Both the position numbers and the translations under genes were made by a program. This document shows positions 950 through 32,892 of a stretch of 33,763 nucleotides of DNA, one piece after another. Position 1 is the stretch's first letter, and every line of letters begins with the position of its first letter. Where the stretch lies: assembly GCF_017814435.1 (NCBI RefSeq), contig NZ_JAGJCB010000030.1, positions 1-33,763 of the forward strand, in the 5' to 3' direction. The notes under the pieces are model-generated. The model was not told the origin of the DNA and did no database searches. It worked only from the letters and a program-made list of their open reading frames with translations. This DNA comes from Mariniflexile gromovii. GTDB lineage: Bacteria > Bacteroidota > Bacteroidia > Flavobacteriales > Flavobacteriaceae.

Positions 950-1897
950 ATGAATACTATAACGAGTACCAATTTCAATTTCCCAAATCAAAAATCGGTT
1001 TATCACGGAAAAGTTAGAGAAGTTTATAACATAAACAACGAGCAGTTGGTTATGATTGCTACCGATCGTTTATCGGCTTTCGATGTGGTAATGCCAAAAG
1101 GAATTCCATACAAAGGGCAAATATTAAATCAAATAGCTACCAAAATGATGGCAGCTACCGAAGACTTGGTGCCCAATTGGTTAACAGCAACACCCGACCC
1201 AAACGTAGCAGTTGGGCATTTATGTGAACCTTTTAAGGTAGAAATGGTAATTCGTGGGTATATGAGTGGACATGCAGCACGCGAGTATAAAGCAGGAAAA
1301 CGTATGCTTTGTGGTGTGGCCATGCCAGAAGGAATGAAAGAAAACGATAAGTTTCCAGAACCTATTATTACGCCAGCAACCAAAGCTGAAATGGGAGACC
1401 ACGACGAAGATATTTCTCGAGAAGACATTTTAAAACGTGGTATTGTAAGCGAAGCAGATTATGTGGTATTGGAAGATTATACCCGTAAATTATTTAACCG
1501 AGGTACCGAAATAGCGGCAAGCCGTGGATTGATTTTGGTGGATACCAAATACGAATTTGGAAAAACCAAAGACGGTCAAATTGTGTTGATTGACGAAATA
1601 CACACTCCGGACTCATCTCGTTATTTTTATGCGGATGGTTATGAAGACAGACAAGCAAAAGGCGAAGCACAAAAACAATTAAGTAAAGAGTTTGTACGCC
1701 AATGGCTTATTGCCAATAACTTTCAAGGTTTAAAAGGACAAACCGTACCTGTAATGAGTGATGCGTATATTGAAACCGTAAGCGAACGCTATATAGAACT
1801 TTACGAAAACATAACAGGCGAAACCTTTGTAAAAGGTGACGTAAGCGATATACAAAAGCGTATTGAGATTAATGTTTTGGAATATTTGAAGAAATAA
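950..1897 (+). CDS. purC: Phosphoribosylaminoimidazole-succinocarboxamide synthase
   Basis: SAICAR synthetase, the ATP-dependent ligation of aspartate to CAIR in cytosolic purine biosynthesis. At 315 aa it is the longer form found in Bacteroidetes and fungi (E. coli PurC is about 237 aa). Visible signatures are ATDRLSAFD (37-45), the Gly-rich [16 protein letters not shown] near 103-118, and [11 protein letters not shown] (215-225). A flavobacterial promoter precedes it. The 3' end is notable: codons 286-315 (from 1805) recur three more times downstream at 2006, 2628 and 2829, each after a palindromic repeat. The present C-terminus may therefore have been swapped in by an inserting element. 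The gene itself looks intact and functional. Confidence 0.97.
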
Positions 1898-1915
1898 CAT
1901 TTTTAAGTGCTTTTC

Positions 1916-2003
1916 AGTCATTTCGACGCAAGGAGAAATCGCATAATTTATATGCTGCCAAGTTTGATGTGATGTCTCAATCGTGCCTCATTTCGACATG
2001 ACT
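1916..2003. repeat. Palindromic element, copy 1 (REPIN-like)
   Basis: An 88-bp element. Half A (GTCATTTCGACG through AATCGCAT) and an inverted half B (ATGTGATG through GACATGAC) flank a spacer of about 22 bp. Outer ends AGTCAT/ATGACT and inner arms ATCGCAT/ATGTGAT are inverted repeats; the inner arms pair with one G-U in RNA form. Near-identical copies lie at 2538-2624 and 2739-2826, and an A half alone at 2115-2142. Sequences of the GTCATTTCGACG-GAGAAATC type are frequent dispersed repeats in flavobacterial genomes as I know them. Each full copy here is followed at once by a purC 3' end copy. Confidence 0.85.
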
Positions 2004-2005
2004 AA

Positions 2006-2098
2006 CAAAATATTACAAGCGAAACTTTTGTGAAAGGTCATGTAAGCGATATGCAAAAGCGTATTGAGACTAATGTTCTGGCTTATTTGAAAAAATAG
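2006..2098 (+). pseudogene. Displaced purC 3' end, copy 1
   Basis: Aligns base for base without gaps to 1805-1897 at an offset of 201 bp. The purC frame stays open (NITSETFVKGHVSDMQKR onward) and ends in TAG at 2096-2098. Many differences from the live gene are synonymous (for example ATA/ATT, ACC/ACT, GTA/GTG, TTG/CTG), which suggests it once served as the coding end of a purC gene. There is no start codon or promoter, so it is a relic. Confidence 0.85.
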
Positions 2099-2114
2099 TT
2101 TTTTGAATTTCGAT

Positions 2115-2142
2115 GTCATTTCGACGCTAGGAGAAATCGCAT
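2115..2142. repeat. Isolated A half of the palindromic element
   Basis: GTCATTTCGACG followed by CTAGGAGAAATCGCAT repeats the A half of the elements at 1916, 2538 and 2739. No B half follows; about 90 bp of unique AT-rich DNA and the GIY-YIG gene come next. This makes the order here A, nuclease gene, A-B, as though the nuclease gene occupies the interior of one element copy. Confidence 0.75.
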
Positions 2143-2231
2143 AATTATTGGTTTTAATAATTCTATGCAATACCTTAATAGTATCCCTTTTTTAGATAAG
2201 TGCGTCTATGATTTTTTAATATATTTATCAT

Positions 2232-2486
2232 ATGCAGCATAATTACTTTGTTTACATAACAACCAATCAATATAGGACTACTTTATATATTGGTTTTACC
2301 AATAATATTCAAAATAGACTATCTCAACATTATTTTGATAATCAGAATGCTAAAAAATCATTTGCAGGTAAATATGCGTGCATTTATTTGGTTTATTATG
2401 AAATATTTGAATTCCCAAAACAAGGTATTGCGAGAGAAAAGCAGTTAAAAGGATGGAGACGCGAAAAGAAGAATAAGTTGATTTAA
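2232..2486 (+). CDS. Small solitary GIY-YIG endonuclease, prematurely stopped
   Basis: An 84-aa single-domain GIY-YIG nuclease of the short URI/YhbQ-like type. The two half-motifs are YFVYI (5-9) and LYIG (18-21); the conserved Arg is R29, His H33, and the metal-binding Glu is E69 in AREKQLKGWRR. The fold should hydrolyse phosphodiester bonds with one metal ion. The ORF stops at TAA 2484-2486, but the same frame continues beyond it as DFNPKWENLNMQIF to a second stop at 2529-2531. NPxWxxL is the usual C-terminus of this family, so the gene appears shortened by one nonsense change although all catalytic residues remain. It lies between an isolated A half-repeat and a full palindromic element inside the purC-tail array. 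It may mobilise or home these elements; that is inference. Confidence 0.85.
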   Translation: MQHNYFVYITTNQYRTTLYIGFTNNIQNRLSQHYFDNQNAKKSFAGKYACIYLVYYEIFEFPKQGIAREKQLKGWRREKKNKLI

Positions 2487-2531
2487 GATTTTAATCCTAA
2501 GTGGGAAAACTTGAATATGCAGATATTTTAA
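2487..2531 (+). pseudogene. Stranded C-terminal codons of the GIY-YIG gene
   Basis: In frame with 2232-2486 after its TAA, the bases read DFNPKWENLNMQIF and then TAA at 2529-2531. The NPKWENL piece matches the C-terminal NP-x-W motif typical of short GIY-YIG proteins. The 2484 stop is therefore best read as a recent nonsense mutation, or less likely as recoding or a sequencing error. Confidence 0.65.
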
Positions 2532-2537
2532 TTTCTC

Positions 2538-2624
2538 AGTCATTTCGACGTTAGGAGAAATCACATAATTTATGTACTTCCAAATATTATGTGATGTCTC
2601 AATCGTGCCTCATTTCGACATGAC
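2538..2624. repeat. Palindromic element, copy 2
   Basis: Same A-spacer-B layout as 1916-2003. The inner arms are ATCACAT and ATGTGAT, a perfect Watson-Crick pair where the other copies have a G-U, and the spacer sequence differs. It follows the GIY-YIG gene and precedes purC tail copy 2. Confidence 0.85.
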
Positions 2625-2627
2625 AAA

Positions 2628-2720
2628 CAAAACATTACAGGTGAAACTTTTGTGAAAGGTGACGTAAGCGATATACAAAAACATATTGAATGGAATGCTT
2701 TGGTTTATTTGAAGAACTGA
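2628..2720 (+). pseudogene. Displaced purC 3' end, copy 2
   Basis: Ungapped match to 1805-1897 at offset 823. It reads [18 protein letters not shown] onward in the purC frame and ends in TGA at 2718-2720. The first 18 codons differ from purC almost only at third positions, with amino-acid changes confined to the last dozen codons. This is the pattern of a real protein end under selection before displacement. Confidence 0.85.
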
Positions 2721-2738
2721 ACTTTTTTTAAACTTCCC

Positions 2739-2826
2739 AGTCATTTCGACGCGAGGAGAAATCGCATAATTTATGTGTTGCCAAGTATGATGTGATGTCT
2801 CAATCGTGCCTCATTTCGACATGACT
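2739..2826. repeat. Palindromic element, copy 3
   Basis: Nearly identical to copy 1 over its 88 bp, including the spacer (GTGTTGCCAAGTATG against ATGCTGCCAAGTTTG). It starts 19 bp after the stop of purC tail copy 2, as copy 1 does after the real purC stop. Confidence 0.85.
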
Positions 2827-2828
2827 AA

Positions 2829-2889
2829 GAAAACATTACAGGCGAAACCTTTGTAAAAGATGAAGTCAGTGATATACAAAAACGTTTTA
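2829..2889 (+). pseudogene. Displaced purC 3' end, copy 3 (partial)
   Basis: Matches purC from 1805 at offset 1024 for about 60 bp ([18 protein letters not shown] in frame) and then diverges near 2886, where the 3' end of the convergent HEPN-like gene begins. The frame stays open a little further (FKEFRFC, stop TAA). The loss of match marks the outer edge of the array and perhaps the oldest insertion. Confidence 0.75.
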
Positions 2890-2895
2890 AAGAGT

Positions 2896-3825
2896 TTAGG
2901 TTTTGTTAACGGCCTTTGTTTTTTTGTCTATTAAAGATATTAATTCTATTACTGATTCTACACTTGCATTTATCATGGTACTAGCATCTTTATGACTAAT
3001 TGTAATCCCATCATTGAGTTTTTCATTTTTATATGCTGTACGTCTCAAATAATCCTCATCAATTATTCCTGCATTGTGTACAATCAAATGTCGAGTAATT
3101 TCAAGTTGTCTTATTTGTTTATCATTTAGAAAAGCTAATTCTGTTTTCTCTAAGTTAAGTAAATCTATATAAGCAGTTTTTATTCCACTGGCACTTGTGA
3201 AATCATATTTAGGGGCAAGAATATCTCCTAAATTATTCGATAAATCAAAATTGAATTTTGATAAAAGACTTATTGAAATCTGCTTTCCGTTAATTCCTTC
3301 AATATCATTTAAAAATCTGTTATTAGATTTTAATAAATTATTTATAAATTTTTGTGGTTGTTTGTTTAATACGTATTTCCAAAGGTCTTTTGAAAATGCT
3401 TCAAAAATTGTCCATGAATTTACAAGAGCATTTAACCCTAATATTCTATAAGCATTAACTAAAGGTGGGGTATTTTCCAACAATTTGTTTATTTCTTCTT
3501 CTGCTAATGCAGAGGACTGAGAACTACTTTCCTTTACTTTGTTTTCAAAGTGCTTTACAATTGCTTCAGCATATTTTTTCGGGTCTTTTTCCTTGTATCC
3601 ATCTAACTTTTCAATTTCATTTAAACCTGTCGAATAAGGCAAGCACTTAAGCATACCTTGTTGGTATCCAACTGTCATAAACAAATATGGAATAGCTAGT
3701 GTGGTTATAATTTGATCCAAGGATAAGCAATAATTATCCATAAAGGGTTTTAAGCCTATATTTGATATATTGTCCCTAACAGCTTCAGCTTTTTTTATGT
3801 TAAATTTAACTTTGTCTATTCTCAT
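2896..3825 (-). CDS. HEPN-like protein, putative RNase or defence protein
   Basis: A 309-aa, mostly helical cytosolic protein with no signal peptide. The C-terminal third carries RHLIVHNAGIIDEDYL (from residue 245). The R-x4-H core with following N is the hallmark of HEPN domains, many of which are RNA-cutting toxins or abortive-infection effectors. It resembles proteins annotated RiboL-PSP-HEPN. I use the ATG at 3825; a TTG at 3834 would add three residues and is less likely. No antitoxin or nucleotidyltransferase partner lies beside it. It sits at the outer edge of the purC-tail array and converges on it, consistent with cargo in an insertion hotspot. Function beyond the motif is inference. 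Confidence 0.6.
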   Translation of the reverse strand: MRIDKVKFNIKKAEAVRDNISNIGLKPFMDNYCLSLDQIITTLAIPYLFMTVGYQQGMLKCLPYSTGLNEIEKLDGYKEKDPKKYAEAIVKHFENKVKESSSQSSALAEEEINKLLENTPPLVNAYRILGLNALVNSWTIFEAFSKDLWKYVLNKQPQKFINNLLKSNNRFLNDIEGINGKQISISLLSKFNFDLSNNLGDILAPKYDFTSASGIKTAYIDLLNLEKTELAFLNDKQIRQLEITRHLIVHNAGIIDEDYLRRTAYKNEKLNDGITISHKDASTMINASVESVIELISLIDKKTKAVNKT

Positions 3826-4014
3826 TTCATTCAATTACACCTATAAGCGAAGTTAGTTTTTTAAAATAAGAAAACCAATATGTAATATTAGGTTTACAAC
3901 AAAAAGTTATAAACATAAGCTATCATTCTAGAATTATTTCAGAATAGCATCTTCAATAATTTAGGAAGTTTTGTATAAGAATCTAAAACAAGTCCAGATT
4001 AACAAAAATGAGTT

Positions 4015-29265: not shown

Positions 29266-30747
29266 ATGCTAGACCAATCATTCTCATATGAAAATTTCAG
29301 AATACTCCTTGATGTTGAGAATAGGAAAGGTCGTTATCTCGAAGATAAAGTATTTTTCGATTCAGACATTTTTCAAAAATCAAGAGAGGTTTCTGATTCA
29401 ATAATTTTAAAAAATAAAGAAATAAGAGAGGAGGCTTACAAATTAAAATCTATATCAAAAATTGAAGATAGGGATTACACAAAACTTGATAAGTTAAATT
29501 CAGAAAAAGACGAACTTAAAAAAACTAGAGAAAAAGAACTCGAAAACATTTTAATAAAAATAGCAGAAAAAACAGATGTTGAAGATTATGAGTTAAAAAT
29601 CAAAAAAGGACAAATAAAGTGGGGCAGTCAATTATATGAGATTGAATATAATCCTGAAAATTATTTTGTTACTAAGCAGTTACAAAGAAATATTTACAAA
29701 ACATTTAAAGTTAAGCAAGCTAACAGAAAGGTAATCGTTGACCAATTAAGATTATTACTTAATGACAGCTTCCCTAAGGTAATCATCAGAACGGACATTA
29801 AAAAATTCTACGAGTCTATTCCACACAAGGAACTTTTAGCCAAAATTGAAGAAAATAGTCTACTTAGCTATCCTTCAAAGAAAATGATAAAACGAGTTTT
29901 AAACCAATATTGGAATATATTATTAGCAGACGGGTTAAAAACAAATAATGACGAACGTGTAGGAATACCTAGAGGCATCGGCTTTAGTGCTTATTTAGCT
30001 GAATTATATTTAAGAAGTTTTGATAAAAAAGTTAAATCATTAAATACCGTAACTTATTACTGTAGATATGTAGATGATATAGTAATTATAATAACTCCTA
30101 ACCATAGGAGTGAAACTAAGGCTATTGCTACTTATCAAAATGAAGTTAAAAGAATATTATTAAGTTCCACTAGATTAAAAATTAACACAAGCAAAACAAA
30201 GATAATTGACCTTACACCGAATAATCAAGACAGAAAAAAATCTATCAAATACGAATTAACATATTTAGGTTATAAATTTATTATACCATATAGCAAAAAA
30301 GATAAATCAATTACCAAGGATGATATTCAAATCTTTATGTCTGATGAGAAATTTGAAAGATATAAGAAAAAAATTGACAATTCATTTTCAGACTATTATG
30401 GTTCAATTACAAAATATTCTGCAAGGAAAAATTCAACTGAAAGAATGCTATTAAAACGAATCAAGTTTTTAACTAATAATCATCAACTCCTTAGAAGAAA
30501 AAGTAATGTTTTTATTGGTATTTATTTTTCTAATGAGTTTCTAAGTACACCTTATTCTGATTTAAAAAAACTCGATAAATACTTAAAAGGCAAAATAACA
30601 GCCTTACCGTCTTCAACAAATAGTCAACTTATAGATAAGCTCAAAAAAATGTCTTTTGAAAGTGGTTTTAGGACAAAAAGCTTAGTAAGATTTAATACAA
30701 AGTCTTACAAAAACGGAAAAATGATTCAAATCTGGAAAAACTTATAG
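29266..30747 (+). CDS. drt3a: Reverse transcriptase, probable Drt3a (DRT type 3 defence)
   Basis: A 493-aa reverse transcriptase. The palm motifs are clear: VIIRTDIKKFYESIP with catalytic D177, GIPRGIGFSAYLAELYL (motif B), and CRYVDDIVII with D270-D271 (YVDD 268-271). Residues 1-150 are a charged, coiled-coil-like region with no known domain; residues after about 340 form a helical thumb and tail. There is no maturase or endonuclease domain, so it is not a group II intron protein. The next gene, 3 bp later, is a second RT; such a tandem pair is the layout of DRT type 3 (UG3 plus UG8). In that system, as I recall, Drt3a copies an ACACAC template in an ncRNA to make poly(GT). The type assignment rests on gene order plus the AC-tract RNA, not on an alignment. 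Confidence 0.82.
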   Translation: MLDQSFSYENFRILLDVENRKGRYLEDKVFFDSDIFQKSREVSDSIILKNKEIREEAYKLKSISKIEDRDYTKLDKLNSEKDELKKTREKELENILIKIAEKTDVEDYELKIKKGQIKWGSQLYEIEYNPENYFVTKQLQRNIYKTFKVKQANRKVIVDQLRLLLNDSFPKVIIRTDIKKFYESIPHKELLAKIEENSLLSYPSKKMIKRVLNQYWNILLADGLKTNNDERVGIPRGIGFSAYLAELYLRSFDKKVKSLNTVTYYCRYVDDIVIIITPNHRSETKAIATYQNEVKRILLSSTRLKINTSKTKIIDLTPNNQDRKKSIKYELTYLGYKFIIPYSKKDKSITKDDIQIFMSDEKFERYKKKIDNSFSDYYGSITKYSARKNSTERMLLKRIKFLTNNHQLLRRKSNVFIGIYFSNEFLSTPYSDLKKLDKYLKGKITALPSSTNSQLIDKLKKMSFESGFRTKSLVRFNTKSYKNGKMIQIWKNL

Positions 30748-30750
30748 GAA

Positions 30751-32892
30751 ATGAAAAAGAAAATTCCAATATCATATTCCAAAGAACGAGTTGTTTTATC
30801 TGATGTTTTACCATATGAAACTCCAGTAACTTTTTCAAATAGGTATTTTTATAAATATTTAATAAATAGTCAAAAATTTTACACCAAACTCTACCAATTA
30901 AAAGGCAAAGAGAAAGCAGATTATAAATTAAAATGTGGTAAGGCTTATCACGAAATAGAATCAATTCTTTTTGGTGTTGAGGAGAGGACTAAACCATTTA
31001 GATTTAATATCACACATAAAAAAAATGACTTTAGAGAATTATGCGTAATTCATCCTGTAAATCAACGTAAGATGGTAGACTTTTATGAAAAATATAAAAA
31101 CATAATAGTCTATTACTCCTCGTTAAGTCCTTTTTCAATTAGAAAGCCATCCAAGGTAGCTAATTTTACATTTTACAATGATGTACTTCATAAAAGAAAT
31201 GAAGATAAAGACCTGCAACACTCTCAAATTGAACAGGATGACAGTGAGTATGAAAACTTAAAATCATTTTTCAGTTACAGAAAATACAGTAACATCCATA
31301 AATTTTATGAATCATATCAATTTCATAGAAGTGAAAAAAAGTATAACAAATTACTAAAAATAGATATCACAAAATGTTTCGATAGCATTTACACTCACAC
31401 TCTTCCTTGGGCATTAACTAACAAAAGAATTGTTAAATCAAATATTAATTCATTAGAATCTACATTTGGTGGTGAGTTTGACTGCTTAATGCAAGACCTA
31501 AATGCAAATGAAACAAATGGGATTATTATTGGTCCTGAATTTTCAAGAATATTTGCTGAATTAATTTTACAACAAATAGATGTTAATATCTACGAAAAGC
31601 TAAAATCAATAGATTCAAAAGTAAACAATTTAATACATAAGGTCGATTACGAGATTTTTAGATATGTTGATGACTACTTCATCTTTTACAATGAAGAATC
31701 ACAGATTGATAAAATAACAGAAGCATTTAAGTTATCATTGAAAGAGTACAGAATGTACTTGAATGATAAAAAGTCATTACTATATTCCAAGCCAATAATT
31801 ACTGAAATAAGTATTGCTAAACAGAAAATAAATGACCTTTTTAATAGTCATTTAGTTTTAAAAGAAAAAGAAATAATAGTAGAAGAGAGTGAGCAATCAA
31901 ATTCAATACTATATTTCAGTTCTAATAATGTAATAACTCGATTTAAATCAATTATTAAAGAATCTGAAGTAGAATATAAGGACATAATGAATTACACATT
32001 AGCTGTCCTAGATAATAAGACTAAAAAATTAATCAAAAAGTATAAAAATTTTGAAGATGAAAGCACCATTAAAACTCAAAAAGAATTTGAAAAAGGATTT
32101 TTAGAAATTCTTGATGTAACATTCTTTTTATACTCTGTCTCACCTAGAGTTAATTCAACAATTAAAGTTTGTCTAATAATTGACAGTATTAATAGTTTTT
32201 TGAAAAAAAATAAAACAAATCAATATAAAGAACCTTTCACTTCTAATAATAAACATAACATTTTCAAAAAAATATCTGATGAAATAAATTTAATTCTTCA
32301 TAAAAATAAAAGCAAAAAAGAAACTCAGATTGAGACGCTTTATCTCTTAATTGCATTAAGCCAATTAGGAAGAGAATATAGATTAAATATAAATGTTTTA
32401 TGCTCGTACTTTAATGCAACAATTAGAAAAAATAATTCTGTACGTTTTAATAGTGAATTAAACTATTTTTCAATAACAGTTTTGCTCTTTTATATTAAAG
32501 ACGTTAAAGCTTACGCTCCAATTTTGGAAGAGTTGAAAAATGTTATTCTAAAAAAATTTAAAACAGGTAAAATATATGGCTGGAAAGATGATGCAGAATT
32601 GGTCTTACTTTTTTTTGACATATTGACTTGCCCATATCTAAATAACGAAGTCAGGTCACATCTTAAATGGAAAGTTAAAGATGCTAAGACAAGAGGTTCA
32701 AAAAGTTTAAAAAGCTATATTAAAGAGTTAAAGGATGAAAAATATAAGTACAAAAAAGAATTATTATCTTTAGTTGATATAAAAGACAATCAAATTACAT
32801 TAATTGAGCAAGAAAAATTCTGGTTTACAAAATGGACAGAGTTTGATTTTGGATTAGAACTCCAAGCTAAAAGAAGCCAAGAAGTGTATTAA
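30751..32892 (+). CDS. drt3b: Reverse transcriptase, probable Drt3b (DRT type 3 defence)
   Basis: A 713-aa second reverse transcriptase, translationally linked to the first (3-bp gap, GGAAATG at the start). Motif A is LLKIDITKCFDSIY with D205, motif B is GIIIGPEFSRIFAELIL, and motif C is FRYVDDYFIFY (YVDD 305-308), so the catalytic Asp residues are intact. Residues from about 340 to the end form a long helical region without a recognised nuclease or protease fold. Length and order fit the larger partner of DRT3. From recollection, Drt3b makes the complementary poly(AC) strand without a nucleic-acid template, using residues of its own active site. Low GC and neighbouring mobile DNA support horizontal transfer. 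Confidence 0.82.
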   Translation: MKKKIPISYSKERVVLSDVLPYETPVTFSNRYFYKYLINSQKFYTKLYQLKGKEKADYKLKCGKAYHEIESILFGVEERTKPFRFNITHKKNDFRELCVIHPVNQRKMVDFYEKYKNIIVYYSSLSPFSIRKPSKVANFTFYNDVLHKRNEDKDLQHSQIEQDDSEYENLKSFFSYRKYSNIHKFYESYQFHRSEKKYNKLLKIDITKCFDSIYTHTLPWALTNKRIVKSNINSLESTFGGEFDCLMQDLNANETNGIIIGPEFSRIFAELILQQIDVNIYEKLKSIDSKVNNLIHKVDYEIFRYVDDYFIFYNEESQIDKITEAFKLSLKEYRMYLNDKKSLLYSKPIITEISIAKQKINDLFNSHLVLKEKEIIVEESEQSNSILYFSSNNVITRFKSIIKESEVEYKDIMNYTLAVLDNKTKKLIKKYKNFEDESTIKTQKEFEKGFLEILDVTFFLYSVSPRVNSTIKVCLIIDSINSFLKKNKTNQYKEPFTSNNKHNIFKKISDEINLILHKNKSKKETQIETLYLLIALSQLGREYRLNINVLCSYFNATIRKNNSVRFNSELNYFSITVLLFYIKDVKAYAPILEELKNVILKKFKTGKIYGWKDDAELVLLFFDILTCPYLNNEVRSHLKWKVKDAKTRGSKSLKSYIKELKDEKYKYKKELLSLVDIKDNQITLIEQEKFWFTKWTEFDFGLELQAKRSQEVY

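Follow-up and report, generated by a model that had tools for sequence, protein, structure and literature searches.

The 3' end of purC in Mariniflexile gromovii is followed by three further copies of itself, and this array is probably the work of a small mobile element that inserted in purC and supplied the gene with a replacement tail. The element consists of a palindrome and, in one unit, a gene for a GIY-YIG nuclease. The window, meaning the whole stretch of DNA that was analysed, comprises the 33,763 nucleotides of contig NZ_JAGJCB010000030.1 (assembly GCF_017814435.1). Its genome is G000 in a sample of six Mariniflexile genomes. The features of the array are listed in Table 1.

Table 1. 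Features of the purC array, in positions of the window
Feature	Position	Strand	Remarks
purC, SAICAR synthetase, 315 aa, host gene	950..1897	+	PF01259, E 3.4e-71; NF009251 above cut-off
T1, live tail of purC, from codon 286 through the stop	1805..1897	+	presumably the newest tail
Palindrome P1, 86 bp	1917..2002	+	
T2, displaced purC tail	2006..2098	+	open in frame, stop TAG
Left palindrome arm (family D2)	2115..2146	+	opens the nuclease unit
GIY-YIG nuclease ORF, 84 aa	2232..2486	+	PF01541, E 7.6e-14, residues 4-80
Palindrome P2, 86 bp	2539..2624	+	closes the nuclease unit
T3, displaced purC tail	2628..2720	+	open in frame, stop TGA
Palindrome P3, 86 bp	2740..2825	+	
T4, truncated and decayed purC tail	2829..2892	+	presumably the oldest tail; counterpart of the decayed tail in G005

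Tails, palindromes and nuclease in the window

The final 93 bp of purC recur without gaps as T2, T3 and T4, at offsets of 201, 823 and 1024 bp. T4 is recognisable over about 64 bp. Self-BLAST of the window returned repeat matches with E values of 1.9e-71 (261 bp, 85%) and 1.7e-46 (203 bp, 81%), and the repetition of the purC tail is far beyond chance. The first-pass annotation of this DNA had described the repeated 3' end, the start of the copies at purC codon 286, the palindrome directly ahead of each extra tail, and the two displaced tails that stay open in the purC frame up to their own, different stop codons. All of these are borne out. Each of P1, P2 and P3 ends 3 bp ahead of a tail copy. 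In the ORF reading, the upstream tail T1 is in phase with the body of purC.

The nuclease frame of the window has 84 aa as against 99 aa in its relatives, owing to a premature stop that falls after the matched domain. Y19, I20, G21, R29 and E69 of the GIY-YIG core are invariant across four relatives, and we take these residues to be catalytic. With both the domain and the conserved core residues present, the ORF is a predicted member of the GIY-YIG nucleases. It is truncated, and its role in homing is putative. The array holds no ORF of at least 80 aa other than the GIY-YIG gene, and no Y1 (HUH) transposase adjoins the palindromes. Tyrosine and serine recombinases were likewise not found among the ORFs of at least 80 aa between the tails.

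Two neighbours of the array are recorded here for completeness. A 312-aa protein is encoded directly past the last tail (2896-3834, minus strand) and also adjoins the purC array of G005; it has no Pfam or PADLOC match. Far downstream, at 29266-32892, the window carries a pair of reverse-transcriptase genes whose products correspond to both proteins of DRT3, a defence system (Drt3a, E 1.9e-105; Drt3b, E 7.9e-200).

The tails of the window are well separated from one another. Of the sites compared with T1, 15 of 93 differ in T2, 16 of 93 in T3 and 9 of 64 in T4; the remaining pairs differ at 19/93 (T2 and T3), 15/64 (T2 and T4) and 11/64 (T3 and T4). The distances of 14-23% are at least those of most congeners' live tails from that of the window: compared with T1, the live tails differ at 9/90 sites in G001, 11/93 in G003, 12/93 in G005, 15/93 in G004 and 26/93 in G002. 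Across the genus, the purC bodies lie 10.1-16.2% from that of the window. With this divergence among them, the window tails are therefore not recent local copies. T2 is closest to the live tail of G005, from which it differs at 10 of 93 sites. Displaced tails evolve without constraint, so divergence alone is no proof of import.

The codon pattern carries traces of past selection. In the comparisons of T1 with T2, T3 and T4, 24 of 40 changes fall on third positions (one-sided binomial p 0.0005, with T1 common to the three comparisons). Between displaced tails and their own live tails there are 26 synonymous and 38 non-synonymous codon differences (six tails, in non-independent pairs). The corresponding numbers between live tails, again in non-independent pairs, are 62 and 27 for ten pairs from five genomes without G002, and 129 and 49 for 15 pairs when the more distant G002 is included. 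The displaced tails look like former real C-termini, as had been proposed in the annotation, and their constraint is relaxed, as after release from selection. The annotation had also called the differences from T1 largely synonymous. This part needs correction, for 7 of the 13 differing codons are synonymous in T2 and also in T3, which is about half and not most.

The tree of the short tails is weak. Uniting the four window tails in one clade gave an AU p of 0.062, and other constraints gave 0.063 (T1-T3), 0.365 (T1 with T2) and 0.079 (T1 with T3), none of them rejected. By the distances, the inserted tail may be of foreign origin, but the short-tail tree, with its AU p of 0.062 for a single clade, does not decide between foreign and local origin.

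Carriers, empty sites and the order of the tails

Extra purC tails are present in three of the six Mariniflexile genomes (G000, G004 and G005), and the other three (G001, G002 and G003) have a single tail. The latter are the empty one-tail sites in related species that the annotation had named as a check. A PurC search of 60 relatives gave a match in 58, a few of them very weak, and found extra tails in G000 and G004; the decayed extra tail of G005 was found at the DNA level. When up to 1.5 kb downstream of purC was searched for palindrome arms and tail copies, both appeared at the same three of 30 loci. The 27 loci that have neither include G001, G002 and G003, and one of these 27 offers only 155 bp of downstream sequence.

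The carriers differ in arrangement. In G004, purC is followed first by the nuclease unit with a tail behind it, and then by a palindrome with the last tail. In G005, it is followed by one palindrome and the decayed tail. All six displaced tails share one start position in purC and begin 2-3 bp past the end of a palindrome. In the window and in G004, the endonuclease ORF is flanked on its far side by a second purC 3' part. The carriers are not sisters in the tree of purC bodies, which contains (G000,(G005,G003)) and (G004,G001) with support of 83-89, none starred. Among these genomes the element is patchy at purC, apparently through gains or losses. T4 of G000 groups with the displaced tail T2 of G005 (support 88/84), and at both loci the tail joins the same following gene at a common junction. 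This tail therefore predates the split between G000 and G005.

The direction of insertion can be read from the far ends of the arrays, which terminate in a tail in all three carriers. Terminators were compared by folding and alignment. Past the last tail of G004 stands a hairpin (z -3.11), and it aligns with the terminators of purC at two empty loci, G003 (z -5.61) and G022 (z -5.16). What comes after the live tail of G004, in contrast, is element sequence. A scan with a consensus terminator found none in L003 or L005. The native terminator is thus kept behind the last tail of G004 and not behind the live one, which makes the last tail native and the live tail the newcomer. The annotation had anticipated this order, with old ends pushed downstream, and the decay of the displaced tails agrees with it.

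Other host genes and the wider families

A second host gene was found in G004, where a beta-Ala-His dipeptidase (TIGR01893 above cut-off) shows a tail, a palindrome and a second tail copy. It is a further gene with the same palindrome and a tail copy, for which the annotation had suggested a search. The copy spans 48 bp (94%, E 5e-14). The first 37 bp of the two tails are identical and the distal part differs; the identical stretch is as compatible with local copying as with import. Among 30 dipeptidase loci, the tail copy occurs in G004 only, and two of these loci have short downstream stretches (208 and 636 bp). In G001 (L238), a left palindrome arm lies 7 bp past the dipeptidase stop, with no right arm and no tail copy. 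In G247, a palindrome array stands further downstream of the dipeptidase gene, past a hairpin resembling the terminator of the gene.

A separate GIY-YIG subfamily is found behind tRNA-Arg in G002 and is present in 26 of 299 family genomes. We examined 26 loci of this series, leaving out four of 30 as second matches in the same genomes. A tRNA gene on the same strand lies within 200 nt upstream at 21 of the 26, and at 14 of the 21 a displaced 3' part of the tRNA follows on the far side of the nuclease gene. For the Arg and Val loci, the displaced part was found at 14 of 19, compared with 6 of 156 pairs of mismatched isotype and with 0 of 19 when the reverse complement was used; L300 and L303, which are outside these 19, have no tRNA remnant. 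Identity between displaced part and intact tRNA is 80-100%; the displaced parts extend to the 3' end of the tRNA and measure 20 to about 73 nt. The layout is that of purC, without palindromes. The tRNA series is the strongest argument that GIY-YIG elements of such size would replace gene tails. Along L278-L303, which come from G002 and other family genomes, the GIY-YIG genes lie directly behind tRNA-Val(TAC) or tRNA-Arg(TCT) and are often in tandem.

GIY-YIG relatives comprise 32 loci in named records at 38-100% identity, and at E 1e-20 they are present in 128 of 397 family genomes. Direct repeats occur in 51 of 62 GIY-YIG loci, counting some places that were doubly sampled and a few repeats away from the nuclease gene. 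At one such locus (L224), an ORF at 1918-2214 on the minus strand ends with a 44-bp overlap with a repeat near the GIY-YIG gene. The right arm of the palindrome, with at most two mismatches, was found in 22 of 299 family genomes. In the arrays read, the unit is a palindrome with an array-specific spacer of about 25 to 250 bp. In the palindrome array L165 (G247:C1:2634500-2638000), the units measure about 300 bp and a long spacer is present.

The spacers of 16 arrays behind gene ends, some of them doubly sampled, were tested for likeness to the tail of their own gene. Clear tail-like spacers were seen only in two purC arrays, the own gene ranking first for G004 and second of 30 for the window. 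L175 also ranked first, with an upstream stretch that is itself palindrome-like, and an MscS-like gene of G002 ranked second of 29; the remaining arrays ranked fourth or lower. In 57 palindrome regions outside the genus, no convincing gene-tail copy was found, and the matches in five loci were weak or lay within arrays. A general rule by which the palindrome would bring a tail is thus not supported. As far as examined, tail replacement is a minority outcome for the palindrome family.

Palindromes recur at the same gene ends across genomes. The end of a LytR-like regulator, which scores below NCBIfam cut-offs, is accompanied by the palindrome at L117, L138, L145, L173, L174, L175 and L190. This gene had suggested by eye that array spacers are short gene tails without exception, an idea that was rejected: the own gene ranked 4th of 27 at L173 and 9th of 27 at L174. 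Of the LytR-like loci compared, 13 of 14 have no downstream palindrome arm, and where an array is present, the flank native to the empty sites follows it and no clear tail copy is seen. A fixed orientation of the palindrome relative to gene 3' ends was also dismissed, with 31 ends facing the left arm and 22 the right (p 0.27, 67 sites). The apparent gene-tail copy at L191 proved to be only a gapped match of 66%. A gene end reading ...VPGKIVNIVG, taken by eye for leuS, faces the left arm in L072 and L076 and the right arm in L124, L127, L136 and L148. Six genomes have the palindrome beside this leuS-like end, in either orientation, which suggests that a single gene was hit repeatedly.

Mechanism, alternatives and known systems

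Layout, order, empty sites and decay are observed at the array, and the following course of events is proposed for it. The element would enter purC at codon 286. The inserted stretch would open with a complete replacement for the rest of purC, so that the gene stays whole. The new stop codon would be followed by the element, and further downstream the original tail would remain, unused and decaying. We infer that the nuclease, or a similar one acting in trans, makes a cut or a nick in purC where its 3' end is uninterrupted, and that repair from an element-bearing purC would copy the new tail and the element into the gap, as in homing. The altered tail may guard purC against recutting. Further units may come from repeated homing or from recombination between the repeats, the latter as reported for the SegB-driven amplification in phage T6 (PMC13096335). 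The annotation had proposed repeated insertions at one site inside purC, each bringing a new 3' end. Insertion at one site is supported by the empty sites in three congeners and the same layout at the dipeptidase and tRNA loci. Each unit may have come by a separate insertion with a foreign tail, though the tails are too short to yield a firm tree (AU p 0.062 for a clade of all four).

A similar array might be built locally, if a palindrome landed behind purC and tail and palindrome were then duplicated in tandem, by recombination or by segmental amplification that the nuclease triggers, with no imported tail. Within the family, arrays are common whose unit is a palindrome and an array-specific spacer of about 25 to 250 bp, and SegB, a GIY-YIG enzyme of phage T6, drives tandem segmental amplification via homologous recombination, according to the part of PMC13096335 that deals with it. 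The dipeptidase tails, identical over their first 37 bp, also fit this course. However, such duplication would leave a palindrome bordering the native downstream DNA, whereas the purC arrays of G000, G004 and G005 and the dipeptidase array of G004 end in a tail on the native side. No two window tails, being 14-23% apart, are recent copies. We consider local amplification unlikely. About equally improbable is a long target-site duplication, in which the palindrome transposes with two nicks tens to about 100 bp apart and gap filling copies the target on both sides, so that at insertion the new tail would equal the old. It would yield the same layout with the gene kept whole, and the 37 identical bp of the dipeptidase tails are again what it predicts; their distal parts, however, differ, and the duplicated lengths would be unequal (about 93 bp at purC as against 37-48 bp). 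In addition, the stretch from the new stop to the palindrome resembles the left flank of the element and not the native DNA downstream of purC, and the array has no transposase-like ORF of at least 80 aa besides the GIY-YIG gene.

That the tails are kept as alternative C-termini and shuffled into purC by inversion- or recombination-based switching is very hard to credit. T2 and T3 are open in frame with different stops, as such a reserve would be, but decay has affected T4 as well as the extra tails in G004 and G005, the displaced tails have no start signal of their own as far as examined, and half of the genus has one tail. Insertion of an element that brings a replacement tail is the reading that we carry forward. 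Beyond purC, it is possible, and we put it forward tentatively, that flavobacteria and their kin hold widespread minimal GIY-YIG elements whose homing targets are 3' parts of tRNA genes and protein genes, and which make the gene whole again by means of a replacement tail that they carry. In one branch, the elements would have joined REP-like palindromes, so that a nuclease and not a transposase would spread a palindrome family.

A selfish element can occupy an essential gene without splicing if it carries the gene's own end. If the above is true, a bacterial case in a gene of purine synthesis, together with the tRNA parallel, would show that the strategy is general, and would point to an enzyme that might newly account for the mobility of bacterial palindrome families. 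It would also be a warning that, in core genes on which phylogenies are built, the C-terminus may have had a history apart from the rest.

Several known systems share features with the array. In Rickettsia palindromic elements, the repeat is translated within the protein. As these elements are outlined in the literature, they resemble the present case in that a palindromic repeat enters a coding sequence without killing the gene, but the palindrome of the window stays behind a restored stop codon. The short palindromes of the REP/BIME type with RAYT, in the accounts available, likewise occur at numerous sites, frequently as arrays, and are accompanied by a single enzyme gene; here the enzyme is GIY-YIG and not a Y1 transposase, and gene tails of purC are duplicated. 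REP/RAYT and integrase islands do not fit because the enzyme differs, being GIY-YIG with neither a Y1 transposase nor a recombinase among the array's ORFs of at least 80 aa. Like the purC nuclease, SegB of phage T6 is a free-standing GIY-YIG enzyme, located beside a tRNA gene, and produces tandem repeats that include gene parts. In the portion of PMC13096335 that describes it, however, a full-length tRNA is amplified under selection and a displaced gene tail is not the defining product.

A literature search of one open-access library found no bacterial element of the tail-replacing kind. The statement in the first-pass annotation that no named system combines these features was nevertheless too strong, since endonuclease ORFs that replace C-termini are described in fungal mitochondria. 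In the sections of PMC3630166 devoted to them, endonuclease mORFs replace the C-termini of genes. In atp6, atp9, cox2 and nad3 of Glomus sp., an inserted C-terminal part is followed by an endonuclease ORF and the native C-terminal part downstream. The mORF of Glomus atp9 is a GIY-YIG enzyme, and the layout was first seen in atp6 of Allomyces (PMC3630166). As in these mORFs, a free-standing endonuclease ORF lies in the 3' part of an essential gene, with the new C-terminus in phase and the native one downstream. Unlike the mORFs as presented there, the array at purC lies on a bacterial chromosome, has palindromes and several units, and encodes a nuclease of only 84-99 aa, for which cutting, transfer and a donor are putative. 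The C-terminal replacement of fungal mitochondria is the closest known system, and the purC case looks like a bacterial, palindrome-bearing variant of it.
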